Virus record (IMG/VR): IMGVR_UViG_3300020207_000173
Coordinates: 1-23,325 of that record
Source: a virus
Length of the DNA stretch: 23,325 bases
Direction: 5' to 3' (one strand)
Below the pieces are notes generated by a model, which saw only the letters and a list, made by a program, of their open reading frames with translations, did no database searches and was not told where the DNA came from. This document shows, piece after piece, positions 5,921-23,325 of the stretch (position 1 is its first letter; every line of letters starts with the position of its first letter). Position numbers and translations under genes: made by a program.

Positions 5921-6670
5921 TTACAGGTTGCTCTTAGTAACCTCAGAGTCTACAGCATATAGCTCAATAGGCGATGTGCTTGAGTTTGTCATGGTGTACT
6001 TTGTGTAATACCCTCTAACTCCTTCCGACTCGGAGGTTTGATTTTTACCCAACATAATAAAATCACCTGAAACAGGCATAGACGATATATTTTTAATTGT
6101 TATCGAATTCAAATTAATACTTTCAACAACCCCAACAAGAGTCATATCCCCAATCTCTGATGTTTCCTCATTAACAGTTGCTTTGTAAATATTGTCCTCC
6201 ACGGATAATGTAGAGTCTGAAAAATCAGAAAAATTTATAGTGTCAGAGGAAACGCTTGTGCAAACTCCAATTCCTTGAAAAGTGAGCTTTTTCGTGTCTA
6301 CCTCATCGTTATTGTTTCTAACGTACGCATAATACATGTTTTCTCTTTTAACAAAAGATTCTTTTTTTATGTGTCCGCTTTCAATATCGCTGTCAACCAA
6401 AACATCCCAATTTTTACTGTTTCCTTCAGTCTTTACAGCCCTATACATTTTAACTTCAGAAGGCCCTTCGTTATTAACGAATTCAATCCTCGTGTCGTAA
6501 GATTCACCATAAAATGTATTTCTGTCATTATCATCTTTATGATGCACATATATTTGTCCATTTTTGAAAGTAAAATATTCATCATTAAGATTGTCTATCC
6601 ATTCTGGTTCATAAGAATAAAACGATGTCCATCCTTGTACCGATTTCTTATATGTTAATGTTTTAGCCAT
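5921..6670 (-). CDS. Structural module of the crAss-like muzzle/stabilization type, 249 aa
   Basis: Residues about 9-55 carry a pattern I associate with the distal part of large structural proteins of flavobacterial phages: VQGWTSFYSYEPEW, then NDEYFTFKNGQIYVHH, then RNTFYG. It continues with VKTEGNSKNWDVLVDSD and a stretch in which Tyr residues of MYYAYVRNN follow a charged segment. In relatives this region is, as far as I recall, part of one long protein. Here it is a stand-alone gene, while the 1,381-aa muzzle protein of the window lacks it. The second half (residues about 130-249) is beta-rich and serine/threonine-rich. It starts one base after the stop of the proline-rich virion gene, so translation is probably coupled. 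A role as a tail or muzzle component is likely; its exact position in the virion is unknown. Confidence 0.5.
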   Translation of the reverse strand: MAKTLTYKKSVQGWTSFYSYEPEWIDNLNDEYFTFKNGQIYVHHKDDNDRNTFYGESYDTRIEFVNNEGPSEVKMYRAVKTEGNSKNWDVLVDSDIESGHIKKESFVKRENMYYAYVRNNNDEVDTKKLTFQGIGVCTSVSSDTINFSDFSDSTLSVEDNIYKATVNEETSEIGDMTLVGVVESINLNSITIKNISSMPVSGDFIMLGKNQTSESEGVRGYYTKYTMTNSSTSPIELYAVDSEVTKSNL

Positions 6671-6671
6671 A

Positions 6672-7811
6672 TTATAATATTCTTACACTTAATGTAGCTG
6701 TACCGAATGCTCCTGAAGCACAGTCTAATGGTTCTAGCTGTAACTTGTAAATACCAACAGGTAACGTTATTGTTTTTGTTTCAATAGTTGGTCCAGATTG
6801 GTCTCTACCGTTAATAACATATGGAGGCCATCCGTAAGGGTTTGATGGGAATGACACATATTGTGTGTAAATACCTGCATTATTCAACAACAATCTACCT
6901 GTAGCATAAACGTATTCACCTGTCGTAACATCCACCTCTATTTTAACTTCAACTTCCCCTTCAGCTTCGACATTGAATATTCCTGTTTGATTTACGCTAT
7001 TTGAACAATTAACATTTATGGAAGTAGTTCCTGTAATTACCGCAGATTTATCTGGCACGACTGCTGGATCTGTACAGCACTCAGAACACTCACTATAAAT
7101 AGGAGTAGTTGAGTTTATAATAACGTTATGAGCTTGCTGAGGAGAAACTTGTTCCCTGACCTCCCAACAACAAGAACTATTTTCAGTCTTAACAACTTGA
7201 CCCTTGTTTAATTGTCTTGTTGTTCTCACTATTCTCCTTTCTTTGTTATTATAGCAATTTATCGTTTCGTAGTGATTTTTATTTATATCTACGTCTGAAA
7301 AACCATCTGCCCATTCTACAAACTCTACGTCTATTTCTGCTCCACTATTCAAGAAAGGCTCAGTAAGAGATTCCATTTCCCTATCTGTATCTGGATACAT
7401 TATTTTTGAAACCTTTTGACCAGTAGAACAGTCTGTAATCTGGAAATAAGATGTGCGAACAGGATCTCTATTAGTGATAAGATACACAGCACATTCTGTG
7501 TTAGCTACATCTAAGGTAACACAAGGATTACAAGTTGTCTGATCAGGTATAGGCTCTTCCTGTGGAACAAAAACAGGAACAGGTGTTGGTGAAGGTGATG
7601 GCGTCGGTGTAGGAGTAGTACCAGGCGCTGGAGCTGGTGTAGGAGCTGGCGTGGGCACATCGTACACATATAGAGGGCAAGACCTAGTATCTGTATAAGG
7701 CTCAATGTAATCTGGGTCAGAAGATTGATTTACCTTCGTTTCAGTTGTTGCCTTACCATTTATGTATTTTCTAAGTCTTGTAACAGTCTTTAGTCCAGTA
7801 GTCTCTGCCAT
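6672..7811 (-). CDS. Proline-rich, cysteine-rich virion surface protein, 379 aa
   Basis: Three parts are visible. Residues 1-50 are an N-terminal module shared with the 452-aa protein encoded at 12010-13368: MA-TG-VT-L-K-G-AT-TK-N, then DPDYI-P-DT-C. Residues 53-80 are a Pro/Thr/Ala/Ser linker of TPAPTPAP type. Residues about 91-270 hold many cysteines (CNPC near 94-97, CC at 214-215, CSECC at 242-246), which suggests a disulfide- or metal-stabilised domain. Residues about 270-379 are beta-rich and end in LSVRIL, like a jelly-roll receptor or carbohydrate-binding tip. I read it as a tail fibre or appendage with an N-terminal attachment module, a possibly modified linker and a distal head. It lies just downstream of the epimerase gene, behind its own TAnnTTTG box. 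No named family was recognised. Confidence 0.6.
   Translation of the reverse strand: MAETTGLKTVTRLRKYINGKATTETKVNQSSDPDYIEPYTDTRSCPLYVYDVPTPAPTPAPAPGTTPTPTPSPSPTPVPVFVPQEEPIPDQTTCNPCVTLDVANTECAVYLITNRDPVRTSYFQITDCSTGQKVSKIMYPDTDREMESLTEPFLNSGAEIDVEFVEWADGFSDVDINKNHYETINCYNNKERRIVRTTRQLNKGQVVKTENSSCCWEVREQVSPQQAHNVIINSTTPIYSECSECCTDPAVVPDKSAVITGTTSINVNCSNSVNQTGIFNVEAEGEVEVKIEVDVTTGEYVYATGRLLLNNAGIYTQYVSFPSNPYGWPPYVINGRDQSGPTIETKTITLPVGIYKLQLEPLDCASGAFGTATLSVRIL
7572..7655 (-). repeat. TPAPTPAP-type linker, 28 codons
   Basis: Residues 53-80 of the 379-aa protein are almost only Pro, Thr, Ala and Ser (PTPAPTPAPAPG, then TTPTPTPSPSPTPVPV). At DNA level this is a degenerate 6-base repeat, GGNGNN on the plus strand. 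It is a candidate substrate region for the prolyl 4-hydroxylase encoded at 10755-11984. Confidence 0.8.
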
Positions 7812-7839: not shown

Positions 7840-8841
7840 TTAACCAACCTGCTTTTTTATCCAATCATAGGTCAACTGTACTCCATCCTTTAATTGGTAC
7901 TGAGGTTTCCATCCTATCAACTCAGATATTAGTCTGTTGTCGGAGGATCTTCCTCTAACACCCAAAGGCCCATCTATATGTTTTATTTTTAACTTTTTTC
8001 CTGAAACGCTCATAACTGTATTTACAAGTCCATTGATGGTGACCATTTGCTCTGAACCAATATTAACAGGACCTAAATGCTTGTCTTGTCTCATGAAAGC
8101 AATTGTAGCGTCAATGGCATCGTCTATGTATAAGAATGATCTGGTTTGTTCGCCATCTCCCCATACTTCAACCACCTTGTCATTTTCAGCGACTTTTCTG
8201 CATATTGCGGCTGGTGCTTTTTCTTTCCCATCGTTCCAAGAACAATTTGGTCCATACACATTATGGTATCTAGCGATTCTTACATCTAGATTTTCGTTTC
8301 TGTTTGCAGATAAATAAAGTCTTTCTGAAAAAAGTTTTTCCCAACCATATTCTGAATCAGGATTTGCAGGGTAAGCACTATCTTCTTCCGTGATAGGATT
8401 ATCTGGATCAAGCTGGTTGTGCTCTGGATAAACACAAGCCGAACTAGAAAAAAATATTTTTTTGACGTTAAAAGAAACAGCGCTATCAACTACATTCAAA
8501 TTAATCTTTGATGAGTTAGACATAACCTGCAGGTCATTATCTCCAGAAAAAATGTATCCTGCTCCACCCATATCTGCTGCCAAATTGTATACCTCGTCAA
8601 ATGCGTTTTCACTATCATCTAACGACTTTTGATCTGGCGCATGCATGCATAAAGAAACAAAGGATGGATTTCTCAGGTCTACAGGAGCATATTCATCGCA
8701 TATTTCTTCTTTTTTGTGAAAGGAAGGCTCTTTTTTTATATCTGCAACTCTCACAAAACAACCCTCTTCTTTTAATCTTTTGGCCAAATGACCACCAACG
8801 AAGCCACCTCCCCCTAATACTAGTACCTTTTTTTTACTCAT
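7840..8841 (-). CDS. GDP-mannose 3,5-epimerase-like short-chain dehydrogenase
   Basis: This is an extended SDR with the Rossmann motif GGGGFVGGHL at residues 10-19. Its body follows plant and algal GDP-mannose 3,5-epimerase closely: YNLAADMGGAGYI, SSSACVYPE, PDSEYGWEKL, ARYHNVYGP, EKAPAAICRK, WGDGEQTRSF, PVNIGSEQMV and GVRGRSSDN. The four residues used by that enzyme are present: Cys136, Tyr165, Lys169 and Lys208. The known reaction converts GDP-D-mannose to GDP-L-galactose (with GDP-L-gulose) in the cytoplasm. At 333 aa it is near normal length. The start overlaps the upstream glycosyltransferase by 8 bases, so it is translated with it. The obvious role is to supply a GDP-L-sugar to the fucosyltransferase-like domain of that neighbour; this is inference. 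A related GDP-sugar epimerase specificity is the main alternative. Confidence 0.85.
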   Translation of the reverse strand: MSKKKVLVLGGGGFVGGHLAKRLKEEGCFVRVADIKKEPSFHKKEEICDEYAPVDLRNPSFVSLCMHAPDQKSLDDSENAFDEVYNLAADMGGAGYIFSGDNDLQVMSNSSKINLNVVDSAVSFNVKKIFFSSSACVYPEHNQLDPDNPITEEDSAYPANPDSEYGWEKLFSERLYLSANRNENLDVRIARYHNVYGPNCSWNDGKEKAPAAICRKVAENDKVVEVWGDGEQTRSFLYIDDAIDATIAFMRQDKHLGPVNIGSEQMVTINGLVNTVMSVSGKKLKIKHIDGPLGVRGRSSDNRLISELIGWKPQYQLKDGVQLTYDWIKKQVG

Positions 8842-10768
8842 TTTGATTCATTTTAATTTCAGTTTCTATTTCTGCGACCCACTGATCTACAGTTCTTTTT
8901 GTCTCCCTTGACTTAAATAAATGTAATGGATTTTTTATGTAATTATCCAATCTATTATCTTCATGCCACAAGGGTCTAAGCTTTTTGTCTCCTCTTTCTG
9001 TGTTGTCGTTGTAGTTATGCCAGACGTTAGCAAACTTAGGGACATAAAAATCATATCCTGCTATGTATGCTAAACAAGAGTATATTTCTTGATCTAAAAA
9101 CGGATTTATCAAAAGATCGTTATTATCATCGTATTTGATTACATCTACTATTTCTCCTCTTCCAAAAACATTAGAGCCTGACACATGAAAAGTTTTGCAG
9201 TATTTCTCACTCCTAGGCACGGTCCCTCTACTGTTAAAGAAAGGAAAAGCATTTTCTTTGAAATTTAATATTTTATTGCAATTAAGCCTATCGTGCTGTA
9301 TATAATCATTGTATTCCGAGTAATTTCTTACATCTGGGGGGAATCCAGTTAGAAAGCTGTTCTCTGGAGATTCATCTATTTGTTGTGCTATACCTATGTC
9401 CCAATTCCTGTAGAATCTACAATGGCTGTCAACCTGTAAGAATATTTCCTCTCCATTATATAGTTCGTTGTTAATTCTATTTCTAGCGTAACCAACACCT
9501 TTTGCTTCTTTATAATGACAGTATATTATTTTTACATCACTCATCAGTCTTAACCTATCCAACATCCACTCTTCATCTTGTAGCATTACACCAAAGACAA
9601 GTCTATTTGGAAAAGCAGCTTTCTCTCTTGCATCATCTATCGTTCTTATTAAATCTAAATCTCGATATGAGGCTATATTTATAAAGATCTTTCTGTCGTC
9701 TTTTTCAGGTGTCCAATAGTATTGAGATAAGTCGTGCCATGAAGATTGATTGTCTTTGTTCCAAGGTAAAACATCGTAAGCAGAATCAACAGAGTCATGA
9801 TTATTATATTCTAATATCCTGACGTTTTGATTTATTGACGCTCTATTTACATTTATGTAATCGCTAAAAGTGCTTAACCTGCTACCTAAAAACTCTTCTG
9901 CATTACTACATGTTATCATGTCTAGTGCTATTTCTCTAAGAGGGTCTGTTATTTCATACAAATCTGAAAAGAAATGCTTATTTTGTATGTTTAATGAGTC
10001 AAAAAAGCTTTTGTCTTTTTCATCTGTTGCTATATAAACTGGTTTATCATAGAAGTAATCTGGAAGAAATTCATTTATAGCACTTAAATCATATTCCATA
10101 TTAGGTCTATCTGATAAGAAATCACCCCTTCTTATGTGAAGTGCGTTGTAATTTCCCATCTTTTTCTTCGCTTCATTTGCATACCTGTATAGATCTTGGT
10201 TAAAACGAATACCTCTGATTATCTTATTTTTTATGTAGTTTCTTTTGTCTGGAGAAGATCCATATACTATGTAATAGAAATGACCAAACAGGTTTCTTGG
10301 AAAATGAATGAACTTAGCTTCAGAGTTTACAGAGAAAGGTTTTCTTCCTGCAGCAAACATTTCAAAATCTTCCTGATCTTCTATATTGTTATACACTACG
10401 AAATCCTTATCTGGAGGAGGCAACGGATGCAGTTCTTCGTATTTAGATGAGAAGGTTTTTATTTCTGCTATTTTATCTATGCCATTAAAATATCCTATCT
10501 TACTGTTTAGAGAAGCATATTCTTCTACATCGTGATAATCAACAGCGTTAAATGTTTCTAAGAAAGTGTCTTTTCTCCAAATACTAAATATATCTAGGTA
10601 TGAGTTCGTGTCATTCCAGTCGTTAATACCATTAAAATAAACCTTCGGTGGTATTATCAATGTTCTTCCTGTTATTTCTGATATAGCAATAGCTATCTCA
10701 AAAGACATTCTAACATTAGAATATCCTGCCCACCAAGGCTCAAAAGATATATACTTATTCTGCGACAT
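8834..10768 (-). CDS. Two-domain glycosyltransferase: O-fucosyltransferase-like domain fused to GT60 (hydroxyproline GlcNAc-transferase family) domain
   Basis: Residues about 5-320 resemble GDP-fucose-dependent protein O-fucosyltransferases. They have GYSNVRMSFEIAIAI at 15-29, RTLIIPP at 35-41, LHIRRGDF at 210-217 (the GDP-binding HxRRGD motif), VYIATDE at 244-250, and AEEFLGSRLSTFSDYI at 290-305. Residues about 358-615 resemble GT60, the family of the Skp1 hydroxyproline GlcNAc-transferase. They have IFINIASYRD at 361-370, AKGVGYARN at 422-430, LQVDSHCRF at 444-452 with a possible metal-binding Asp447, and DQEIYSCLAYIAGYDFYVP at 559-577 followed by WHNY at 583-586. No signal peptide or membrane anchor is visible, so it should act in the cytoplasm. 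Its start overlaps the prolyl hydroxylase gene by 14 bases and its end overlaps the epimerase gene by 8. Hydroxyproline-O-GlcNAc formation followed by addition of an L-sugar is the likely job. The domain families are well supported; acceptor and donor are inferred. Confidence 0.8.
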   Translation of the reverse strand: MSQNKYISFEPWWAGYSNVRMSFEIAIAISEITGRTLIIPPKVYFNGINDWNDTNSYLDIFSIWRKDTFLETFNAVDYHDVEEYASLNSKIGYFNGIDKIAEIKTFSSKYEELHPLPPPDKDFVVYNNIEDQEDFEMFAAGRKPFSVNSEAKFIHFPRNLFGHFYYIVYGSSPDKRNYIKNKIIRGIRFNQDLYRYANEAKKKMGNYNALHIRRGDFLSDRPNMEYDLSAINEFLPDYFYDKPVYIATDEKDKSFFDSLNIQNKHFFSDLYEITDPLREIALDMITCSNAEEFLGSRLSTFSDYINVNRASINQNVRILEYNNHDSVDSAYDVLPWNKDNQSSWHDLSQYYWTPEKDDRKIFINIASYRDLDLIRTIDDAREKAAFPNRLVFGVMLQDEEWMLDRLRLMSDVKIIYCHYKEAKGVGYARNRINNELYNGEEIFLQVDSHCRFYRNWDIGIAQQIDESPENSFLTGFPPDVRNYSEYNDYIQHDRLNCNKILNFKENAFPFFNSRGTVPRSEKYCKTFHVSGSNVFGRGEIVDVIKYDDNNDLLINPFLDQEIYSCLAYIAGYDFYVPKFANVWHNYNDNTERGDKKLRPLWHEDNRLDNYIKNPLHLFKSRETKRTVDQWVAEIETEIKMNQNE

Positions 10769-11984
10769 ACTGCCAGTCGCTTAGCTTATAATGAACGAAC
10801 ATATTTCTAAAGTATGTTCCTGCAAATAAATAATTCCTTGCGTGTTCACAAGCTGCTGACTCATATAAAATCATTTCCCCTACTTCAGCGTACACTTGAT
10901 TCCATGCTCCGTTGTGAGATTGTATGTCTAATGGCCAATCATCGGCAAACTCCCTGTTTTTGCATCCACATTTTAAGTCTTTGTCTACGATAATAATAGA
11001 AGATATGTGATGCGTTGCTATTCTATCCTTATGCGCAACTAGACCAGCTCCTCTTAAATAAGATCTAATACCGTAAATAAATGAAGGCTCTAGTTTTGTT
11101 CTTGCAAACTCTTCGTGCAAAGGCAACAACATCTGATGAAGTCTATCTCTTTTTTCATACACCTGTCCCACATCTAAAAGCTCGCTTGTCTTTCCTGTTC
11201 CAGGGATTATACTTTCTTTGCCTTCAAAAACCTCCTCTCTTGCGGTAGGCTTCACATCTTCATACATCTCTTGTATTAAAGCCCACGCATCATCTGGCAC
11301 TTTTACAACTTTAAAGCCTGTCTCATGAAATTTAGGTATGTTGTCGTGATTACTAAAAACCTTTTTCAAGTCTGTTGATTTTGGCCTTCTGTTATGATGT
11401 TCTGTCGCTAGCCTTACATCTTCAGATCCATTCCATTCGTTCTCTCTCCACCAAGATGTAATTATGTATTTTGTTCCAGACACAACATCTGTACCTTCAT
11501 GAAGAGTATCGTGTTGAGGAATACCGTTCTTTGTGTTTTCCCAAAAAACAGCCTTACCTGTCTTAGGCTCTACTGTTTTATCTAAACTTGGAAAGTTAGT
11601 GCCACCTCCTTCAAAATCATCGTTAAGATAAATCATCATTGTGTATGTTCTGTTTCCAGAGCTAAGACAATGATTTGTGTAAGAATCGCCTGTAAAATAA
11701 TCGTGATGCTGTCTAAAGAATTGACCAGCTTCATATTTTTGACCCTGTATAGGCTCTCCTTTGCTTAAGTCTTGCTGTAAAAAAGACGCTATACGTCCCT
11801 TTACTTCAATAGTCAGACTATCATTAACATCAAGGTTCGATGTGTATGATGTTCTGGATGAGTCAGTTTTTGATGCTTGTGATCCAGATCCAGCTACAGA
11901 AGATCTTACATTGTTTGCTTCAATGTTTGATATAAGCTGATCACATTCTTCTTTCGTTAGAAAGTTCTCTATTTCTGTTATCAT
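10755..11984 (-). CDS. Two-domain 2-oxoglutarate/Fe(II) dioxygenase, prolyl 4-hydroxylase type
   Basis: The first domain (residues 1-185) is a prolyl 4-hydroxylase fold. It has RTS at 44-46, the iron motif H93-x-D95 in YEAGQFFRQHHDYF, MMIYLNDDFEGGGTNFP at 116-132, the distal His162 in LHEGTDVVSGTKY, and Lys172 placed to bind 2-oxoglutarate. The second domain (about 215-405) looks like another dioxygenase. It has YGIRSYLRGAGLVAHKD with H318-x-D320, then VGEMILYESAACEH with His381, then FRNMFVHY; Lys is replaced at the +10 position, with Arg393 nearby. Known prolyl 4-hydroxylases convert proline to 4-hydroxyproline with O2 and 2-oxoglutarate. The length is about twice that of a single-domain enzyme. 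It heads a three-gene overlapping run with two sugar enzymes and sits just after a gene encoding long TPAPTPAP linkers. Those linkers are the likely substrate. Acting on another protein is possible. Confidence 0.82.
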   Translation of the reverse strand: MITEIENFLTKEECDQLISNIEANNVRSSVAGSGSQASKTDSSRTSYTSNLDVNDSLTIEVKGRIASFLQQDLSKGEPIQGQKYEAGQFFRQHHDYFTGDSYTNHCLSSGNRTYTMMIYLNDDFEGGGTNFPSLDKTVEPKTGKAVFWENTKNGIPQHDTLHEGTDVVSGTKYIITSWWRENEWNGSEDVRLATEHHNRRPKSTDLKKVFSNHDNIPKFHETGFKVVKVPDDAWALIQEMYEDVKPTAREEVFEGKESIIPGTGKTSELLDVGQVYEKRDRLHQMLLPLHEEFARTKLEPSFIYGIRSYLRGAGLVAHKDRIATHHISSIIIVDKDLKCGCKNREFADDWPLDIQSHNGAWNQVYAEVGEMILYESAACEHARNYLFAGTYFRNMFVHYKLSDWQYVAE

Positions 11985-12009: not shown

Positions 12010-13368
12010 TTAAAATCCACCATTTGCCGCAACACAACCTGAGCAATCATTAAATTCTGAAACCCAAGACAATGTTGGAGTATTATTAGATGGCTGCATT
12101 AAAGTGTAACACTCTCCATCACTAGCTAATACTATATCTCCTGTCACGATTGAACCTGTGCTATCCCATGCAAGATACTGATTATTTTGTCCATTTCCTC
12201 CTGCACAAGGTTGCAATTCCCAAGAAGCATATGAAACTGGAGCTGGTGTAGGTGCTACAGTAGGCGCAGGAGTTGTTTGTGAATTAAGACACTCACTACA
12301 AGAATCAAACTCTTGATCTACAGTTTGAGTGGGAACTCCATTTGCTTGGTATGAATCTATTGTATAACAAATACCATTAGACGCTAAAATTACAACTCCT
12401 ACATCTAAATTAGCATCATACGCTATTTGCTGATTGGCAGTTCCTCCGCTACACAGACCTAGATTCCAAACAGGTGTTTGTGAAACTGGAGCAGGAGTTG
12501 GAGCAGGTGTTGCACAAGAACTGAAAGTAAACACAAATCCATTAGGTCCTACTTGGAAAGAGTTTCCTCCACCATATTGGTCCGTAAAGTATGTATTTCC
12601 TCCGTTATATAATGTTGTTAATGCGGCATCTAAATATAAAGCGTGCCCATTATTGTATGTTTGTTGAACAGAAGTATCTCCGTGAGAGTTGTATACTGTT
12701 ACAGGAGCTCCAGTCGAAGAACAAGCTAAAGCAGAGCTGGACCATCCTTGCAATGGATTTGTTCCGCTCGAAGTATTGGCGTATATAGTAAATGAAGCTA
12801 CTGCAGGCGCAGGAGCAGGTGTAGGTGAAGGTGTAGTAGGCGCTGGTGTAGTCGTTGGAGCTGGTGTTGTAGGAGCTGGTGACGGTGATGGTGTTGTAGG
12901 TGCTGGCGTTGGAGCTGGCGTAGGGGCTACGCAACTAAAAGTTGAAATCACAGTGCCATTAGATATTTCTATTCCAGATCCACTTGCGAGTATATAATGA
13001 CCATCTGCATAATCAGATAAGCCTTGATTGTCTTGATAAACAGAATTACTTACACCTGGATAGCTGCCTGATCCATTATGATAAGCTGTAGTATATCCTC
13101 CAGAATGCGCACATGCTTGGACTCCATCTGTGTAACCCTGATCTGAAATAGCAAATGATGGGTATGAGAATACTGGAGCTGGTGTAGTCGTTGGAGCTGG
13201 TGTAGGAGCAGGAGTTACAGGGTCTGCACTTACAACACATTTAGCCGTGTCTTGAAAGGGAGGGATGTAATCTGGGTCTCCTTTTGAGTTAGGTTTTGTG
13301 TCTAAAGTAGCAATTCCGTCTACTAGCTTTTTTAGCTCTGTAACTACAACTATACCAGTATTAGCCAT
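12010..13368 (-). CDS. Modular virion protein: four cysteine-bearing domains joined by TPAPTPAP linkers, 452 aa
   Basis: Residues 1-49 form the N-terminal module shared with the 379-aa protein (DPDYIPPFQDT at 31-41). Then come linkers at 50-66, 148-189, 286-299 and 366-378, alternating with four small domains. Domains 1 (67-147) and 2 (190-285) share a layout: AC, a central VY, an NGH/DGH turn, and a terminal FSC/FSSC. Domains 3 (300-365) and 4 (379-450) are clear duplicates: C-GG, NQ, A-Y/W-D, VILAS/IVLAS, CYT, and EF-CS-C at the end. The Pro linkers should be extended and hold the domains apart like beads. I interpret it as a tail fibre or surface appendage. It lies between a glycosyltransferase and the prolyl hydroxylase operon and behind its own TAnnTTTG box. 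The function of the small domains is unknown; glycan or host-surface binding is only a guess. Confidence 0.6.
   Translation of the reverse strand: MANTGIVVVTELKKLVDGIATLDTKPNSKGDPDYIPPFQDTAKCVVSADPVTPAPTPAPTTTPAPVFSYPSFAISDQGYTDGVQACAHSGGYTTAYHNGSGSYPGVSNSVYQDNQGLSDYADGHYILASGSGIEISNGTVISTFSCVAPTPAPTPAPTTPSPSPAPTTPAPTTTPAPTTPSPTPAPAPAVASFTIYANTSSGTNPLQGWSSSALACSSTGAPVTVYNSHGDTSVQQTYNNGHALYLDAALTTLYNGGNTYFTDQYGGGNSFQVGPNGFVFTFSSCATPAPTPAPVSQTPVWNLGLCSGGTANQQIAYDANLDVGVVILASNGICYTIDSYQANGVPTQTVDQEFDSCSECLNSQTTPAPTVAPTPAPVSYASWELQPCAGGNGQNNQYLAWDSTGSIVTGDIVLASDGECYTLMQPSNNTPTLSWVSEFNDCSGCVAANGGF
12235..12273 (-). repeat. TPAPTVAPTPAP linker, 13 codons
   Basis: Residues 366-378 of the 452-aa protein join its third and fourth small domains. 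The codons follow the same GGNGNN-type DNA pattern as the longer linkers. Confidence 0.75.
12472..12513 (-). repeat. TPAPTPAP linker, 14 codons
   Basis: Residues 286-299 of the 452-aa protein (ATPAPTPAPVSQTP region) join its second and third small domains. The DNA contains GGAGCAGGTGT, which also occurs in the other linkers. Confidence 0.75.
12802..12927 (-). repeat. Longest Pro/Thr/Ala/Ser linker of the 452-aa protein, 42 codons
   Basis: Residues 148-189 consist only of Pro, Thr, Ala and Ser apart from the terminal residue, as TPAPTPAPTTPSPSPAPTTP and variants. Plus-strand DNA is a run of GGNGNN units. It offers about 20 prolines, many in Thr-Pro or Ser-Pro context. Confidence 0.85.
13171..13221 (-). 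repeat. TPAPTPAPTTTPAP linker after the shared N-terminal module
   Basis: Residues 50-66 of the 452-aa protein separate the shared N-terminal module from the first small domain. They occupy the same place as the linker in the 379-aa protein (residues 53-80). Confidence 0.75.
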
Positions 13369-13392: not shown

Positions 13393-14310
13393 CTAATTTT
13401 TGAGACTCGCTTCTTTTAGTAAGCCATAGTATTGATAGGAGCATTTTTTTTCATCTAGCTTCAAATCTGAAGCAAACGGATCGTTATGTATGTAAGCTCC
13501 TTTGTAGAACATTCCTGTGTGTGAGGAGGTAACACCAGCGTTGTGATATATAGAACAATGATCCCATCTTTTTATAGGATCTGTTGCCCAACAAAAGTCC
13601 ATATCTGGATGTATTCTTGTCTCTATACCCCTCATCCAAGCCATCCATAATGTAGCCCACATTTCGGCAGTCCAAACCTGTAACATGTGATAGTTAGGGT
13701 CTGCTTTCTTTTTAGCCTTCTCATATACATTTGTCATCTTGTAAAGCTTAACGCCCATACTGTAACAGTCGTACCAGAATTTTGCGTCTACATTTTTGAC
13801 AATATATTGCGCTCCTCCAGAATTATCTTCATTTTTCTTGACAGTATCTTCATCAATGCCTGTTGTAATGAGCATAGTTTCTAAGGTATCCCTACCCTTA
13901 GACATAATATAATTATATCCTAAGTAGCTTTTAGTGTCGCTTAGATACCAGATATCGTCATTACATAAATGATCTAGACTAGGATTTTTAGTAAAAGCGA
14001 TATCAGAATCATGAAAAAAAACGGAATCATTTCTCGTTTCAGGAAATTGCTCATAGTATCTAAATAACAAATAATGTTTTATGCTTGGTATGTAAGACTT
14101 ATCAGGCCTACCATCTTTATACCTGTGTATAGATATACCAGGGTACTTGCCTTCTAAATGTGAAAACCATTGTTTAGGTTGGTTGGGTAAAACAGATGCC
14201 AATATATGAACATCTCTCATTTCTATGCCTGCTTTTTGAAAAGAATAAAGCATGACATCTAGTTGCCAAGAGAAATAATGATTCTCTGGTTGAGCACATA
14301 TATATTTCAT
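13393..14310 (-). CDS. GT-A-type glycosyltransferase with DSD motif, 305 aa; possibly related to hydroxyproline-rich glycoprotein transferases
   Basis: The N-terminus NHYFSWQLDVMLYSFQKAGI (residues 10-29) and the segment FFHDSDIAF with the metal-binding D101-x-D103 mark a GT-A glycosyltransferase. A later stretch, EMWATLWMAWMRGIETRIHP (about 215-235), and a histidine- and aspartate-bearing end, YHNAG...YIHNDPF, complete the core. The W-Q...SF-K-G pattern and the layout remind me of plant and algal enzymes that act on Hyp-rich glycoproteins, namely peptidyl-serine galactosyltransferase and hydroxyproline arabinosyltransferase. That resemblance is weak and from memory. There is no signal peptide. 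It lies 10 bases downstream of the muzzle gene and directly upstream of the 452-aa proline-rich protein, away from the other enzymes by one gene. Modification of Ser/Thr/Hyp in the virion linkers is the likely task. The glycosyltransferase call is reasonable; its specificity is unknown. Confidence 0.62.
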   Translation of the reverse strand: MKYICAQPENHYFSWQLDVMLYSFQKAGIEMRDVHILASVLPNQPKQWFSHLEGKYPGISIHRYKDGRPDKSYIPSIKHYLLFRYYEQFPETRNDSVFFHDSDIAFTKNPSLDHLCNDDIWYLSDTKSYLGYNYIMSKGRDTLETMLITTGIDEDTVKKNEDNSGGAQYIVKNVDAKFWYDCYSMGVKLYKMTNVYEKAKKKADPNYHMLQVWTAEMWATLWMAWMRGIETRIHPDMDFCWATDPIKRWDHCSIYHNAGVTSSHTGMFYKGAYIHNDPFASDLKLDEKKCSYQYYGLLKEASLKN

Positions 14311-14320
14311 TTTAATTCAA

Positions 14321-17300
14321 TTAACTACAAGGCGTACACATTGAAGAGAAGCTCGATCCACTCCAGTAACTATACTCATTATTCTTGGTATAGTATCCTG
14401 TTGATGCATAACCACTTGTATCTCCTGTGTAACAAGCACTAGCGACTTGATATACTTTAGACGAACTACACCAGTTAGAATTATCAGTATAAACAACTAC
14501 GTAACTTCCTTCACAAACGCTAGTTGAACTATAGTACACCCCATGAGCATAACAAGGTGCGTTAGTAGGCGTTGGAGCTGTTGGCGCTGGAGTAGTTGGT
14601 GCTGGCGTTGGTGACGGTGCTGGCGTTTCTGTTGGCGCTGGTGTTGTCGGTGCAGGAGTTGTAGGTGCAGGTGTAGCACATGTTGTATCAACTCCGACAG
14701 TACAAGTTATAGTTGTTCCTGAGTTAGTCCAATATGGGTCGCTTACATAGAAAGATGCACTAACACTTGCAGTTCCGCTATTTGGCGTAGCACTAGTTGG
14801 ACTATAAGAAACTAATGTTTGATCGCTAAATCTAGCTGATACATCAATTGCTCCTGAATTACAATCAAAGCTAGTTACAAACCAATATGAACCATGAGTA
14901 CCACAACTGTATGTACTACAATTAGTTGTACATACTGGTGGTGGGTTTGTTGGTGTAGGAGCAACAGGAACTGGTGCATTAGTAGGTGTTGGAGCTACAG
15001 GTGGTGGTGATGTAGGCGCAGGGGTCGGATTAGGAGATGCTGCTGTTGGCGCTGGAGTTGTTGGAGCAGGGGTTGGAGCTGGTGTAGGCGCTACAGTAGG
15101 AGCAGGAGTTGGAATTGGAACGACCGCTTGTTCACAATAATACTTGTTTACAACCCAAGAAACATTACCTTTCTCACAATAGTAATCATCTTCTCTCCAC
15201 TCAATAACAGGGTCTTTTACATTTATTACATATAAATCATTATAAGGATCATATCCTCCAATAACCTGAGAGTTAGCTGTGTCTCCAACATTTTCTCTGA
15301 ACCAGTCCTTCATTCCATATTCAGAAATCTCTTCTAAACCATTACTATCCAGTCTAACAACAGTTCCTCTCTTACTGTCTGTGAAAAATATGTCATTATA
15401 CCATTTAGCAAAAGAAGATGGCGATTTTGATATTCCATATTCTCCTATATAAGGAACTTGTGTTCCTAATACATCTTCGGTTGAACCAACATTTCCAGTT
15501 CCGTCTGCATTATATAAAACAGACTTTTCGAACATAATTTTACTAACCTTGTTCTCTTGGAAAACAATCAGGTCTGTATCTCTTGAAGATATTTTTTCAA
15601 TAGACCCATATTTATCATCTATATCCCTAAAGTTAGATAAAGACAAATTAAATTCGTTAAGTCCATTGTAATTTGTAGATTGCTCATATCGACCACCATA
15701 TGTTAATGAGGCTATTCTCTTATTTTGACGATAGCCTTCGTAGCTAATCAAAGGTCTTGCATTGTGCAACAATTCTTTTGCGTTAAAAGCATCTTTGTAC
15801 TTATAACTTTCTATGGGTCCACCCCAAGTAAATGCGTTGAAGAAATCTAAAGTAACTAAAGCTGCTCTTCCTTCTGCTTGATCTCTATCTCCATTTGAGC
15901 CCTTATGATATCCTTGCTCCGTTATATCATATGTTTCTCCTATTTCATGAAAAGTATCATCATTTAATACTTTAGGCTTTGTTTCAAAAACAAGTAGAGA
16001 ATCTCCTCTATCCTTCAGAACCATATTCCAGCTAGCCTCACAAAATACATTTGCCGACAAACCGTCAAGTATGCCTCCAAGCCAAGTGTGATCTCCTGAT
16101 CCAATAAGATCTGCTAATCCTGCGTCTTGTGAATTTTGAGAATCTATGATCATGCACAAGGGGTCAGATGCGTTGTTTGTCACCTGAAAAGTTCTCCCTA
16201 ATTCAGTTCCTGTATCTGTGACAACACCTCTTCTCCATTTAATCTTAGATTCAGGAATCTTTATGGTCATTTCTTCCTTCATCTGCTCATGCCAAAACTC
16301 CTCTATGTTTGGATAATATTTGCTTGAAAGAATGCTGGACGAAAATATATTAAAATAATCCGATCTTCTTTCATTGAAAGTCAATCTCAACGTACTTCCT
16401 GGACCAACCTCTCTGTTATCTTCTGGGCCCACTAATACAACTTGAGCAAACTTTTCTTCATCGTATGAGGTTATTGGGTTTCTAGCATTTACAGTCCATC
16501 TTTCACCTAAAGAATGACCTGTAGATGCGTTAAATGAAATTCCAAGTCCATCTTGAAGCGAGTAACTTTGATTCATCAAAAGATTCTCTGTCCATGGTCC
16601 TGTTCCATTTTCATCGGTTACCCTCCATTTAAAAGTATCAGTCGTTCCAATTGAATCAACCTCAATTTCGAATCTTTGATCCGTAGATCCACTAGGTGTT
16701 CCTGTAATAGACATGTCGTTCAAAGATGAGCCTGCAACCTGATAATAAAAAGGCCCTTCAAAATATCTTACTGTCTGTTCGTTTGTGATCCTATTGCTAA
16801 GCTGACCTGTTTTTCTTCTTGAGTTGTCCTCGTCTCTACTTGTTTTCTTAAAATAACCTGCATCACTAATGCTATATCCTGAAGGCTTTAACTTCATATA
16901 GGTTCCCTCTTCCTGCAAAATTTCACCTATACCAGCAGATCCTGAAGTATCAAGAAAGTTTCTATCTTTTTGTCCAAACTCTAGAACTTTTGTTTCTACA
17001 TAATTATCTTTTTTCCCTGATGTATCAGATTTTACAACAAGAAAATCACCTTCTTTAAACTTATCCAAATCAGCCTTCTCTACCTTAACCCAAGCAAAAT
17101 CAGAGTCAGTAAAAAATATTACAGGAGTTACTGTTTCATACTGGCTTTCATTTTCTTTTAAGAATAATCTATAATGCTTTGCCCATTTAGGTGCAATATT
17201 TTTTATTGTTAATTGAAGTTTATTTTTTCTATCAGAATATCCAACTGGTATTTTTACAGCATTATTTTCGCAAGTCATTACCGTAGACATTCTTCCATAT

Positions 17301-18466
17301 TCATCGAGGTAAACAATGCCTGCCTCATAACTTCGGTTACTCTTTATTGTTCTAGTTGGGTTAGAGAAAGGAACAAACGTAGAGAGGTGGTTCAAAGTGA
17401 AATCGAAGTTTATCTCTTCATTATTCACGTCAACCATATCGTAGTTTTCCGTGTAGTTTGCGTAAATGAGCCTATTTCCAATAATATCTTGTGTTTCGGC
17501 TTTTAATGGGACATTGTCAAATAGCCTAGTGCTTTCGTCAGAAGGAAGCACAGTATATATCTTGCTGTTTTTAAATGAAAAAGTATAGTCTGAGTTATCT
17601 GACAACTTTAACTTGCTTTTTTTAAAATTTTCTATCAAAAATATTCTTGACGAATCAGACTCTCTAAAACACAAATCAATCGAAACAACATTAGAGCCTC
17701 CTGTCTCAAAAGTTACATTTGCTTGATTGTATTGGTTTTTCATTGACTCATTAGTAGCCTCATCATAGTTGTAGAAAAACTCTCTTGCATCAAATGCATA
17801 TTCACTGAAAGGCCCAAGGCTACTAACCTCGCCATCAAGATATTTGTATCTGTAAGCAAACTGTATAAATTTATCAGTCAAGAAATTCTCTTCACTGTTT
17901 CCAGTATTCACCAATTCAATCTCAGGCTGCCTTATGGGAGGTTTTACGATAACATTTATGTCGTCTTGTGTAAATCCGTTTTCAGAGTAAGTTTTTGCTC
18001 TTTGTATATTTATTTTTCTAGGTGGATTAAAGCCATCTGTCCAAAACAAAAAGTCCCTATCATTATCAGTGTCGTTAAGTATGTTTGCACTGTGTATTTT
18101 ATTAAACCTTTGAAAATTTAGTACATTTTCACCTTCAGGTCTAGTGTCTGATAAAACAAAAGAGCTTGTTCCAGAAACATTATCGTATTCGCAAATATAA
18201 GAAGCAGAGGAAGTAACAACAAACCAATAAATTCTATTGTTTGCGTCATCTGCTATAGAACCTATAGTTTCTGGATTACTTCCTGAATAAGACAACAGTT
18301 GTCCAGCTAATCTGTTTGATTTAGCATTTTTTAAAACGCCTGTATCAGCATCTACAACGCTAGAAACCAAAACATTTTCAGCATGAATATACTCGTCATT
18401 TTTTAACAAGCGTTCATCCGCATCTTTATTCATGCGACCAGAAAGGAATACGTTTTGTAGCTTCAT
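14321..18466 (-). CDS. Muzzle/stabilization protein (crAss-like) with a proline- and cysteine-rich C-terminal extension, 1,381 aa
   Basis: The first 1,115 or so residues match the large muzzle or stabilization protein of crAss-like podoviruses, which forms the distal tail opening. Recognisable parts are MKLQNVFLSGRMNKDADERL at the start, then GSIADDANNRIYWFV, then the FIQFAYRYKYLDGEVSSLGP region, then GNRLIYANYTENYD. The last 265 residues are extra: a 61-residue Pro/Thr/Ala linker (1117-1177), a small domain with paired cysteines (CTTNCSTYSC, 1178-1264), a second linker (1265-1304), and a final Cys/Tyr/Ser-rich domain ending in MCTPCS. The start overlaps the upstream stop codon by one base (TAATG). 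The extension should project from the tail tip, where host recognition takes place, and carries the same linker type as the two fibre-like proteins. The core call is fairly secure. The role of the extension is inferred. Confidence 0.75.
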   Translation of the reverse strand: MKLQNVFLSGRMNKDADERLLKNDEYIHAENVLVSSVVDADTGVLKNAKSNRLAGQLLSYSGSNPETIGSIADDANNRIYWFVVTSSASYICEYDNVSGTSSFVLSDTRPEGENVLNFQRFNKIHSANILNDTDNDRDFLFWTDGFNPPRKINIQRAKTYSENGFTQDDINVIVKPPIRQPEIELVNTGNSEENFLTDKFIQFAYRYKYLDGEVSSLGPFSEYAFDAREFFYNYDEATNESMKNQYNQANVTFETGGSNVVSIDLCFRESDSSRIFLIENFKKSKLKLSDNSDYTFSFKNSKIYTVLPSDESTRLFDNVPLKAETQDIIGNRLIYANYTENYDMVDVNNEEINFDFTLNHLSTFVPFSNPTRTIKSNRSYEAGIVYLDEYGRMSTVMTCENNAVKIPVGYSDRKNKLQLTIKNIAPKWAKHYRLFLKENESQYETVTPVIFFTDSDFAWVKVEKADLDKFKEGDFLVVKSDTSGKKDNYVETKVLEFGQKDRNFLDTSGSAGIGEILQEEGTYMKLKPSGYSISDAGYFKKTSRDEDNSRRKTGQLSNRITNEQTVRYFEGPFYYQVAGSSLNDMSITGTPSGSTDQRFEIEVDSIGTTDTFKWRVTDENGTGPWTENLLMNQSYSLQDGLGISFNASTGHSLGERWTVNARNPITSYDEEKFAQVVLVGPEDNREVGPGSTLRLTFNERRSDYFNIFSSSILSSKYYPNIEEFWHEQMKEEMTIKIPESKIKWRRGVVTDTGTELGRTFQVTNNASDPLCMIIDSQNSQDAGLADLIGSGDHTWLGGILDGLSANVFCEASWNMVLKDRGDSLLVFETKPKVLNDDTFHEIGETYDITEQGYHKGSNGDRDQAEGRAALVTLDFFNAFTWGGPIESYKYKDAFNAKELLHNARPLISYEGYRQNKRIASLTYGGRYEQSTNYNGLNEFNLSLSNFRDIDDKYGSIEKISSRDTDLIVFQENKVSKIMFEKSVLYNADGTGNVGSTEDVLGTQVPYIGEYGISKSPSSFAKWYNDIFFTDSKRGTVVRLDSNGLEEISEYGMKDWFRENVGDTANSQVIGGYDPYNDLYVINVKDPVIEWREDDYYCEKGNVSWVVNKYYCEQAVVPIPTPAPTVAPTPAPTPAPTTPAPTAASPNPTPAPTSPPPVAPTPTNAPVPVAPTPTNPPPVCTTNCSTYSCGTHGSYWFVTSFDCNSGAIDVSARFSDQTLVSYSPTSATPNSGTASVSASFYVSDPYWTNSGTTITCTVGVDTTCATPAPTTPAPTTPAPTETPAPSPTPAPTTPAPTAPTPTNAPCYAHGVYYSSTSVCEGSYVVVYTDNSNWCSSSKVYQVASACYTGDTSGYASTGYYTKNNEYSYWSGSSFSSMCTPCS
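14555..14674 (-). repeat. Second Pro-rich linker of the muzzle extension, 40 codons
   Basis: Residues 1265-1304 are TPAPTTPAPTTPAPTETPAP and related units, ending in TPTNAP before the final cysteine domain. The only residues other than Pro, Thr, Ala and Ser are one Glu and one Asn. Confidence 0.85.
14936..15118 (-). repeat. First Pro-rich linker of the muzzle extension, 61 codons
   Basis: Residues 1117-1177 begin PIPTPAPTVAPTPAPTPAP and end with two TPTN units and PPP. This is the longest such linker in the window. Two APTPTN units and SPPP give it an extensin-like look. Confidence 0.85.
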
Positions 18467-22311: not shown

Positions 22312-23325
22312 TTAACTTCTTTTTCTAATTTTCAATCTAGAACCAGCATCTTCAGTTACAGCCCTGAATTTAGTTGCCCCATCACTGCCAGTAACTACGT
22401 TTTGTTTTACAGACATGTCAATGTTTTTTGTCTCTTTTACTAGACCATTAACAGCATCTGCAGTTCCCAAATCGTAGAAATACTTGGCGAATGCATCAGG
22501 ATTGTTTGCTACAGTCATCGCTTTATGATAACCCACAGCATCACTAACTTCACCTTTTTCATTCAAGAAACCTCCTACGAAGTTTGCTATGTTTGAGTTT
22601 CGGCTTTTTACGGACTCTTTATCCTTTAGTTTGTAAACCTGTTTCTTTTCTCCTAAGTCAAACTCGAAACCTTCGATTTGATTGAAAAGTTCATCGGTTT
22701 TGTTTTTGAAAACCTCAGCTCTCTGTTTCACTAAAGAATCCTGCTTTTCCTGGTTCTGCTTATATTCGCTATAAAAGTTAAAAGCTTCTTTATACTGTTC
22801 AGGTACGTTGGCTTCACTTGACTCAAGTGGCTTGTAGTATTTCTCCTTCTGAGTAGAAAAATGCTCTTTAGCTTTATACAACTCTTCTTTTAATGCAAGT
22901 TTTTTGTCTCGCTTCGAATCTTCACTATCATCATCATCAGACAAAAAATGTTTTCCAATGTGATAAGATATGTCTTCATCGTCAAAATGTGGCTTGTTTT
23001 CTTTAATGTATGATTTTAATAAATCTAATTCAGACATACTATCGTAGTCTTTGCTTAAATTCATATAATCAGACAAGCCTCTTCCTGTCTCTTTTTGATA
23101 CTTTAAAAAGGCTTCCACATCTTCTGTAAGCTCGATTTTATCTTCTTGCTTATCGTTATTTGAAAGAACGTCATCTAGATTCAGATCATACTTGCTTAGG
23201 TATTCTCTAACTCTATCTTCATCTGAAACCTCAACGGTTTCTTGTTTTTCTTCTTGAACAGGCTCTTGTACTTCTTCTTGCACCTGTTCTTGTGCTTGTT
23301 CTTGTACCTGTTCTTGTACAGGTTC
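22312..23325 (-). CDS. Probable capsid scaffolding protein (5' end beyond window)
   Basis: The frame is open to the right edge, so the true start lies outside. A GTG at 23283 is in frame but lies inside a repeat that continues upstream (EPVQEQVQEQAQEQVQEE), so I do not take it as the start. The visible 337 residues are highly charged and mostly helical: an acidic N-terminal part with Asp/Glu runs (DDEDISYHIGKHFLSDDDDS), a long central coiled-coil-like stretch rich in Lys, Glu and Gln, and a basic end (SRLKIRKRS). It has no cysteines or membrane segments. An acidic coiled-coil protein ending in a basic tail immediately upstream of the capsid gene is the classic picture of a scaffold. No specific family was recognised. 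Confidence 0.6.
   Translation of the reverse strand, partial: EPVQEQVQEQAQEQVQEEVQEPVQEEKQETVEVSDEDRVREYLSKYDLNLDDVLSNNDKQEDKIELTEDVEAFLKYQKETGRGLSDYMNLSKDYDSMSELDLLKSYIKENKPHFDDEDISYHIGKHFLSDDDDSEDSKRDKKLALKEELYKAKEHFSTQKEKYYKPLESSEANVPEQYKEAFNFYSEYKQNQEKQDSLVKQRAEVFKNKTDELFNQIEGFEFDLGEKKQVYKLKDKESVKSRNSNIANFVGGFLNEKGEVSDAVGYHKAMTVANNPDAFAKYFYDLGTADAVNGLVKETKNIDMSVKQNVVTGSDGATKFRAVTEDAGSRLKIRKRS

Follow-up and report, generated by a model that had tools for sequence, protein, structure and literature searches.

A Pro-rich accessory arm on a crassvirus-type muzzle protein, encoded beside a predicted prolyl 4-hydroxylase and glycosyltransferases

Results

The window, the whole stretch of 23,325 nucleotides of viral DNA analyzed here, encodes on one strand a 1381-aa protein and, downstream of it, a set of putative protein-modifying enzymes, two further Pro-rich proteins and a detached domain (Table 1). 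We identified the 1381-aa protein as a muzzle of the crassvirus type (PF25731/PF25729): its crAss_MUZ profile match lies above the curated cut-off (E 9.6e-17, 60.8 bits versus 27), it matches phrog_14478 (E 9e-253), and its predicted fold matches the muzzle of phicrAss001 (7qok_A, E 2e-16). PDB searches by sequence with the muzzle or the muzzle profile gave no match, whereas the fold search did find 7qok. The muzzle model has a mean pLDDT of 69, with low confidence for residues 1061-1115.

Table 1. Features of the window, in order of coordinates.
Feature	Coordinates	Strand	Residues or length	Basis or remark
Detached muzzle C-terminal domain	5921..6670	-	249 aa	crAss_MUZ_C (PF25729) 1.7e-11, 44.8 bits
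Pro-rich protein	6672..7811	-	379 aa	N-terminal ~60 aa common with 452-aa protein
GDP-mannose 3,5-epimerase	7840..8841	-	333 aa	GME 2c59
Fusion, O-FucT-like + GT60 GlcNAc-transferase-like	8834..10768	-	644 aa	PF10250 5e-15; PF11397 6.5e-27
Double-domain 2OG-Fe(II) oxygenase	10755..11984	-		N-terminal domain P4H-like; PF13640 3.8e-16
Pro-rich adhesin-like protein	12010..13368	-	452 aa	
Putative glycosyltransferase	13393..14310	-	305 aa	HDSD motif; phrog_4417
Muzzle ORF	14321-18466	-	1381 aa	
Cys domain D2	14324..14554	-	1305-1381	
Pro/Thr/Ala linker 2	14555..14674	-	1265-1304	about 41 aa, 16 Pro
Cys domain D1	14675..14932	-	1179-1264	
Pro/Thr/Ala linker 1	14933..15118	-	1117-1178	27 Pro/62 aa
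Lineage-specific junction	15119..15214	-	1085-1116	common only to extension-bearing relatives L010-L019
Muzzle core	15215..18466	-	1-1084	crAss_MUZ, phrog_14478, isolate homology limit, 7qok_A fold

The homology of the muzzle to 87 isolate records, from phages infecting Flavobacteriia, ends at residue 1083-1085. The contigs related to the window are metagenomic, and the best muzzle segments of the extension-bearing relatives (L010-L019) are 53-81% identical to those of the window muzzle. Residues 1115-1381 contain 17.6% Pro and 18.4% Thr, as opposed to 2.9% Pro in the core, and none of 2000 shuffles of the protein reached the observed clustering of Pro. The original prediction of an addition of about 265 residues past the core, made of two Pro/Thr/Ala linkers and two Cys domains, held in coordinates and counts, position 15118 corresponding to residue 1117. 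Its label "extensin-like" has to be dropped: read directly, the linkers contain a single SPPP and no SPPPP, the motif that is repeated in plant extensins. Their dispersed TPAP pattern is closer to the arabinogalactan-protein type.

Both Cys domains contain six Cys. For D1, phmmer found relatives in L010 and otherwise solely in contigs identical to the window, and there was no Pfam match. The AlphaFold model of D2 has a pLDDT of 94; a fold search with D2 gave no PDB match, and the model reached TM 0.70-0.78 to parts of uncharacterised phage proteins. D2 had been likened to domains 1 and 2 of the 452-aa protein. We found no significant profile similarity between them (hhalign E 0.2 and 0.08), and D2 is a different module family. 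D2 has relatives in about 13 further loci, where they mostly form the final module of a Pro-rich ORF lying immediately upstream of the oxygenase, and the last domain of the nearest relative (L010) differs from D2. Furthermore, domains 2 and 3 of the 452-aa protein were found within the muzzle extensions of L011 and L048, and its domain 2 also inside those of L012 and L014. Such a pattern is what one would expect if surface-exposed modules were exchanged.

Such Pro tracts are confined to four proteins on a 64.8-kb contig of this phage: the muzzle, the 452-aa and 379-aa proteins, and a fourth one located more than 30 kb away. The fourth (L264/L265, contig positions 17833-20514) has the same TPAP/TVAP linkers and adjoins a tail-fibre-like gene. 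The ORF leaving the right end of the window (22312-23325) begins with a short acidic repeat (QEQVQEPVQEE-like).

The extension is accompanied by a split of the muzzle gene, a feature absent from the original prediction. In the window, the C-domain has its own gene, which lies 7.6 kb downstream of the muzzle stop and is separated from it by six genes. Core and C-domain share one ORF in phi38:1, Panino, Gundel, the elemo phage and loci L023, L025, L027, L028 and L033; they are fused in most isolates lacking the cassette, whereas every cassette locus showing both parts has them split. The muzzle of the isolate phi19:3 is split too; its 499-aa Pro-poor extension bears an Ig/cadherin-like domain, and the stretch read contains no enzymes. 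Split muzzles carrying Pro-poor extensions were common among enzyme-less relatives in the muzzle-anchored scan, which makes the junction a general hotspot for insertions. An extension at this junction is thus not unusual as such, and only the Pro-rich flavour is special and tied to the cassette.

Comparison with related muzzles confirmed that the extension is an accessory addition, homology of the isolates stopping at about residue 1084, and ruled out that the same extension is a universal muzzle feature; the Pro-rich type is not universal in cassette-less phages. The proposed tie to the enzymes therefore stood for the Pro-rich type but not for extensions generally, as phi19:3 illustrates. The extension had also been placed at the tail opening, where other phages mount fibres. 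It does sit on the muzzle, but the fibres of phicrAss001 attach to hubs that surround the tail barrel (R1/R2) rather than to the muzzle (PMC10172136), so that the muzzle is not simply the usual place of fibre attachment.

By its HxD...H...K motif and its family similarity, the oxygenase is of the prolyl 4-hydroxylase (P4H) type, and activity on peptidyl-proline is predicted. Its N-terminal domain matches the bacterial P4H 5iax (7e-25), and the active-site residues H93xD95, H162 and K172 are conserved in all 46 representatives having those columns. In the second domain, H318 and H381 are kept in 47/47. A GTDB scan for a cellular source of the two-domain enzyme returned only ten matches, mostly from Sphingomonadaceae at 38-46% identity. 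Nearly all of them cover the first domain alone, and the scan revealed no close cellular source.

The fusion protein downstream of the oxygenase scores above the cut-offs of both its families, protein O-fucosyltransferase (PF10250, 56.3 bits versus 31.5) and GT60 of the Gnt1 type (PF11397, 95.3 bits versus 21), and the DSH motif of the latter is conserved in the alignment. The GT60-like domain is predicted to transfer GlcNAc to hydroxyproline or Thr; the O-FucT-like domain had only a weak PDB match, to POFUT2 (E 0.009). Related loci encode O-FucT and GT60 separately or have the FucT joined to a carbamoyltransferase. The epimerase is closest to GME (2c59, E 2e-85, versus 8e-24 for GDP-fucose synthase, the next family). 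At L074:2024-4435, an 803-aa protein with GT60 and galactosyltransferase family 7 domains lies just upstream of the oxygenase.

Where GT60 and FucT are both absent, a gene of about 277 aa with a remote match to the family of plant hydroxyproline O-arabinosyltransferases (HPAT) often follows the oxygenase. Such HPAT-like genes replace GT60/FucT in 14 oxygenase loci; 8/20 members match PF23452, remotely (best 1.1e-7), and the L090 member scores 25.2 bits versus the cut-off of 23.9. The 305-aa transferase of the window was also considered as an HPAT and rejected: one of ten family members matched at 0.0036, the window protein itself gave none, the profile comparison reached E 0.27, and the weak signal was lost with more members; moreover, the family occurs without P4H. 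This uncharacterised family follows muzzles in phages without P4H, and in L246, L252 and L254 it follows muzzles with non-Pro extensions. An alignment of the gene adjoining the muzzle, used as a scan query, held no conserved stretch.

Pro tracts and the oxygenase occur together. Of the muzzle-anchored loci that extend 3 kb or more downstream, those with the oxygenase had a Pro tract (at least 10 Pro in 30 residues) in 12/12 cases versus 1/31 for those without (uncorrected p 8e-10), eleven of the twelve being the window phage and its close relatives and one coming from the broader scan. In the oxygenase-anchored search (47 representatives, <90% identity), the ORF just upstream of the oxygenase was Pro-rich in 34 of the 43 testable cases versus 27 of 319 control genes (p 6e-23, a value that ignores relatedness). 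These associations are not phylogenetically independent: in a tree built from 67 muzzles, the oxygenase and the Pro tract vary in concert, with four changes and about three origins, and the independent pairs, about 3:0, are too few to be significant alone. A FucT, GT60 or HPAT-like transferase lies near the oxygenase in 33/41 representatives, as opposed to 0/26 oxygenase-less muzzle loci, and the remaining 8/41 have none of the three types. Outside the muzzle lineage, L132 and L134 encode Ig-type tail proteins with Pro/Glu tracts, followed immediately by O-FucT and an oxygenase.

We found no Pro-rich ORF in the oxygenase loci L067, L107, L074 and L097. Collagen-like repeats were sought as an alternative target in oxygenase loci without Pro tracts and can be ruled out there, as none were found. 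At L067:4463-9666 and L107:3462-8926, a tail fibre with an S74 intramolecular chaperone immediately precedes the two-domain oxygenase, which is accompanied by O-FucT and GT60, and no Pro-rich tract is present.

Discussion

We consider it probable, albeit by no means assured, that the window encodes a phage system that would hydroxylate and glycosylate the linkers of tail adhesins, carried here on an accessory modular arm of the muzzle. A gene break between muzzle core and C-domain would have left the C-domain as its own gene, and the core would have acquired Pro/Thr/Ala linkers together with small Cys domains as its new C-terminus, a modular adhesin arm. The adjacent oxygenase would hydroxylate linker prolines, after which the neighbouring glycosyltransferases, here the O-FucT/GT60 fusion supplied by the epimerase with GDP-L-galactose or a related sugar, would place sugars on hydroxyproline or Thr. 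A GT60 member of T. cruzi acts on Thr, and by analogy the GT60-like domain of the window may do so as well. The resulting spacers would be stiff, resistant to proteases and coated with sugar, and would bring the Cys domains from the tail end to the host surface. The sequences themselves show the gene split, the accessory character of the extension, the domain exchange, the enzyme families with their conserved active sites and the co-occurrence; we infer the substrate, the sugars, the order of the steps, the surface position at the tail end and the adhesion.

The linkers could instead be plain flexible Pro/Thr spacers, with the oxygenase and transferases acting on host surface polysaccharide, DNA or host proteins and lying here only by virtue of a cargo hotspot. 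The many non-Pro extensions at the junction, the occurrence of the 305-aa transferase after P4H-less muzzles and the P4H loci without a Pro-rich ORF would all fit. However, the oxygenase accompanies the Pro-rich type and not other extensions, is in most cases the next gene after the Pro-rich ORF, and is paired with Pro-rich proteins again in unrelated phages, so that we regard this explanation as unlikely, though one that deserves some weight. An ordinary adhesin tail, functionally unrelated to the enzymes, seems to us a very unlikely reading of the extension: the split, enzyme-less muzzle of phi19:3 with its Ig/cadherin-like arm is a precedent, but the co-occurrence of oxygenase, glycosyltransferases and Pro tracts (12/12 versus 1/31, 34/43 versus 27/319, 33/41) argues against it.

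Alternatively, the prolines might be hydroxylated without being glycosylated, which would stiffen the linkers, while Thr/Ser or other virion proteins would receive the sugars. The P4H loci without any of the three transferase types point in this direction, as does the inclusion of a T. cruzi polypeptide GlcNAc-transferase in GT60 (PMC6939170). What speaks against it is the replacement of GT60/FucT by HPAT-like genes, the named relatives of which act on hydroxyproline, and we judge hydroxylation alone to be rather improbable.

Beyond this locus, it is quite conceivable, though we would stop short of calling it probable, that tailed phages possess a hydroxyproline O-glycosylation of their own for tail adhesins, consisting of the conserved two-domain oxygenase and interchangeable transferases (HPAT-like, GT60, or O-FucT with or without carbamoyltransferase). 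To our knowledge, hydroxyproline O-glycosylation has so far been known from eukaryotes only. If the glycosylation reading is true, bacterial viruses have it as well, and the muzzle junction is a natural swap site for surface-exposed modules. A virus survey of the Baltic Sea counts prolyl 4-hydroxylase with the most abundant auxiliary metabolic genes in the water column and states that its use by viruses "remains cryptic" (PMC9301287). The gene order described here offers a specific use, namely the modification of Pro-rich tail-adhesin linkers together with an adjoining partner transferase.

Comparison with known systems

The muzzle gp44 of phicrAss001 (PDB 7qok) shares with the window muzzle the core fold and the position in the structural gene order. 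Unlike gp44, the window core ends at about residue 1115, with the C-domain on its own gene and a Pro-rich adhesin-like extension. In phi19:3 (Baltivirus), gp120 and gp121 resemble the window in that an accessory extension splits the muzzle from the C-domain at the same junction; in contrast to the window, the extension is Pro-poor and Ig/cadherin-like, the C-domain starts 4 nt downstream, and there is no enzyme cassette.

Among viruses, PBCV-1 likewise encodes a prolyl 4-hydroxylase with proposed virion substrates, but it is an algal virus. We know of no transferase cassette linked to this enzyme. One analysis, cited in PMC7019647, reportedly found no hydroxyproline in PBCV-1 virions. For mycobacteriophages, the abstracts suggest that phage-encoded transferases glycosylate virion proteins (PMC11256854) and do not mention hydroxyproline. 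Our literature search found no full text that combines hydroxyproline O-arabinosyltransferase with phage. In the Synechococcus phage S-SCSM1 (L034, L234, L235), the stretches read contain about ten annotated 2OG oxygenases. An O-FucT lies between two of its oxygenases, together with a carbamoyltransferase, GMD, GDP-fucose synthase and GME, and two of its virion proteins have strong Pro tracts, a count that covers this cyanophage alone. By its gene content, S-SCSM1 is a possible independent case of the same chemistry.

Plant hydroxyproline-rich glycoproteins (extensins and arabinogalactan proteins) also bear Pro/Thr/Ala tracts, and HPAT-like genes lie beside P4H in related phage loci. Unlike the plant system, the window has no SPPPP motifs and no recognised HPAT-like gene. 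The Skp1 pathway of Dictyostelium and Toxoplasma (PhyA, Gnt1/GT60, PgtA) likewise brings together a P4H-type oxygenase, a GT60-type transferase and a fucosyltransferase, and in Skp1 P4H acts before the GT60 enzyme Gnt1 modifies the hydroxyproline (PMC6939170). Skp1 carries one modified Pro and resides in the cytosol, whereas the window has long Pro tracts on a virion protein, and the fucosyltransferase of the Skp1 pathway belongs to GT74 whereas that of the window belongs to PF10250. The Skp1 pathway is the closest working model for the cassette of the window.
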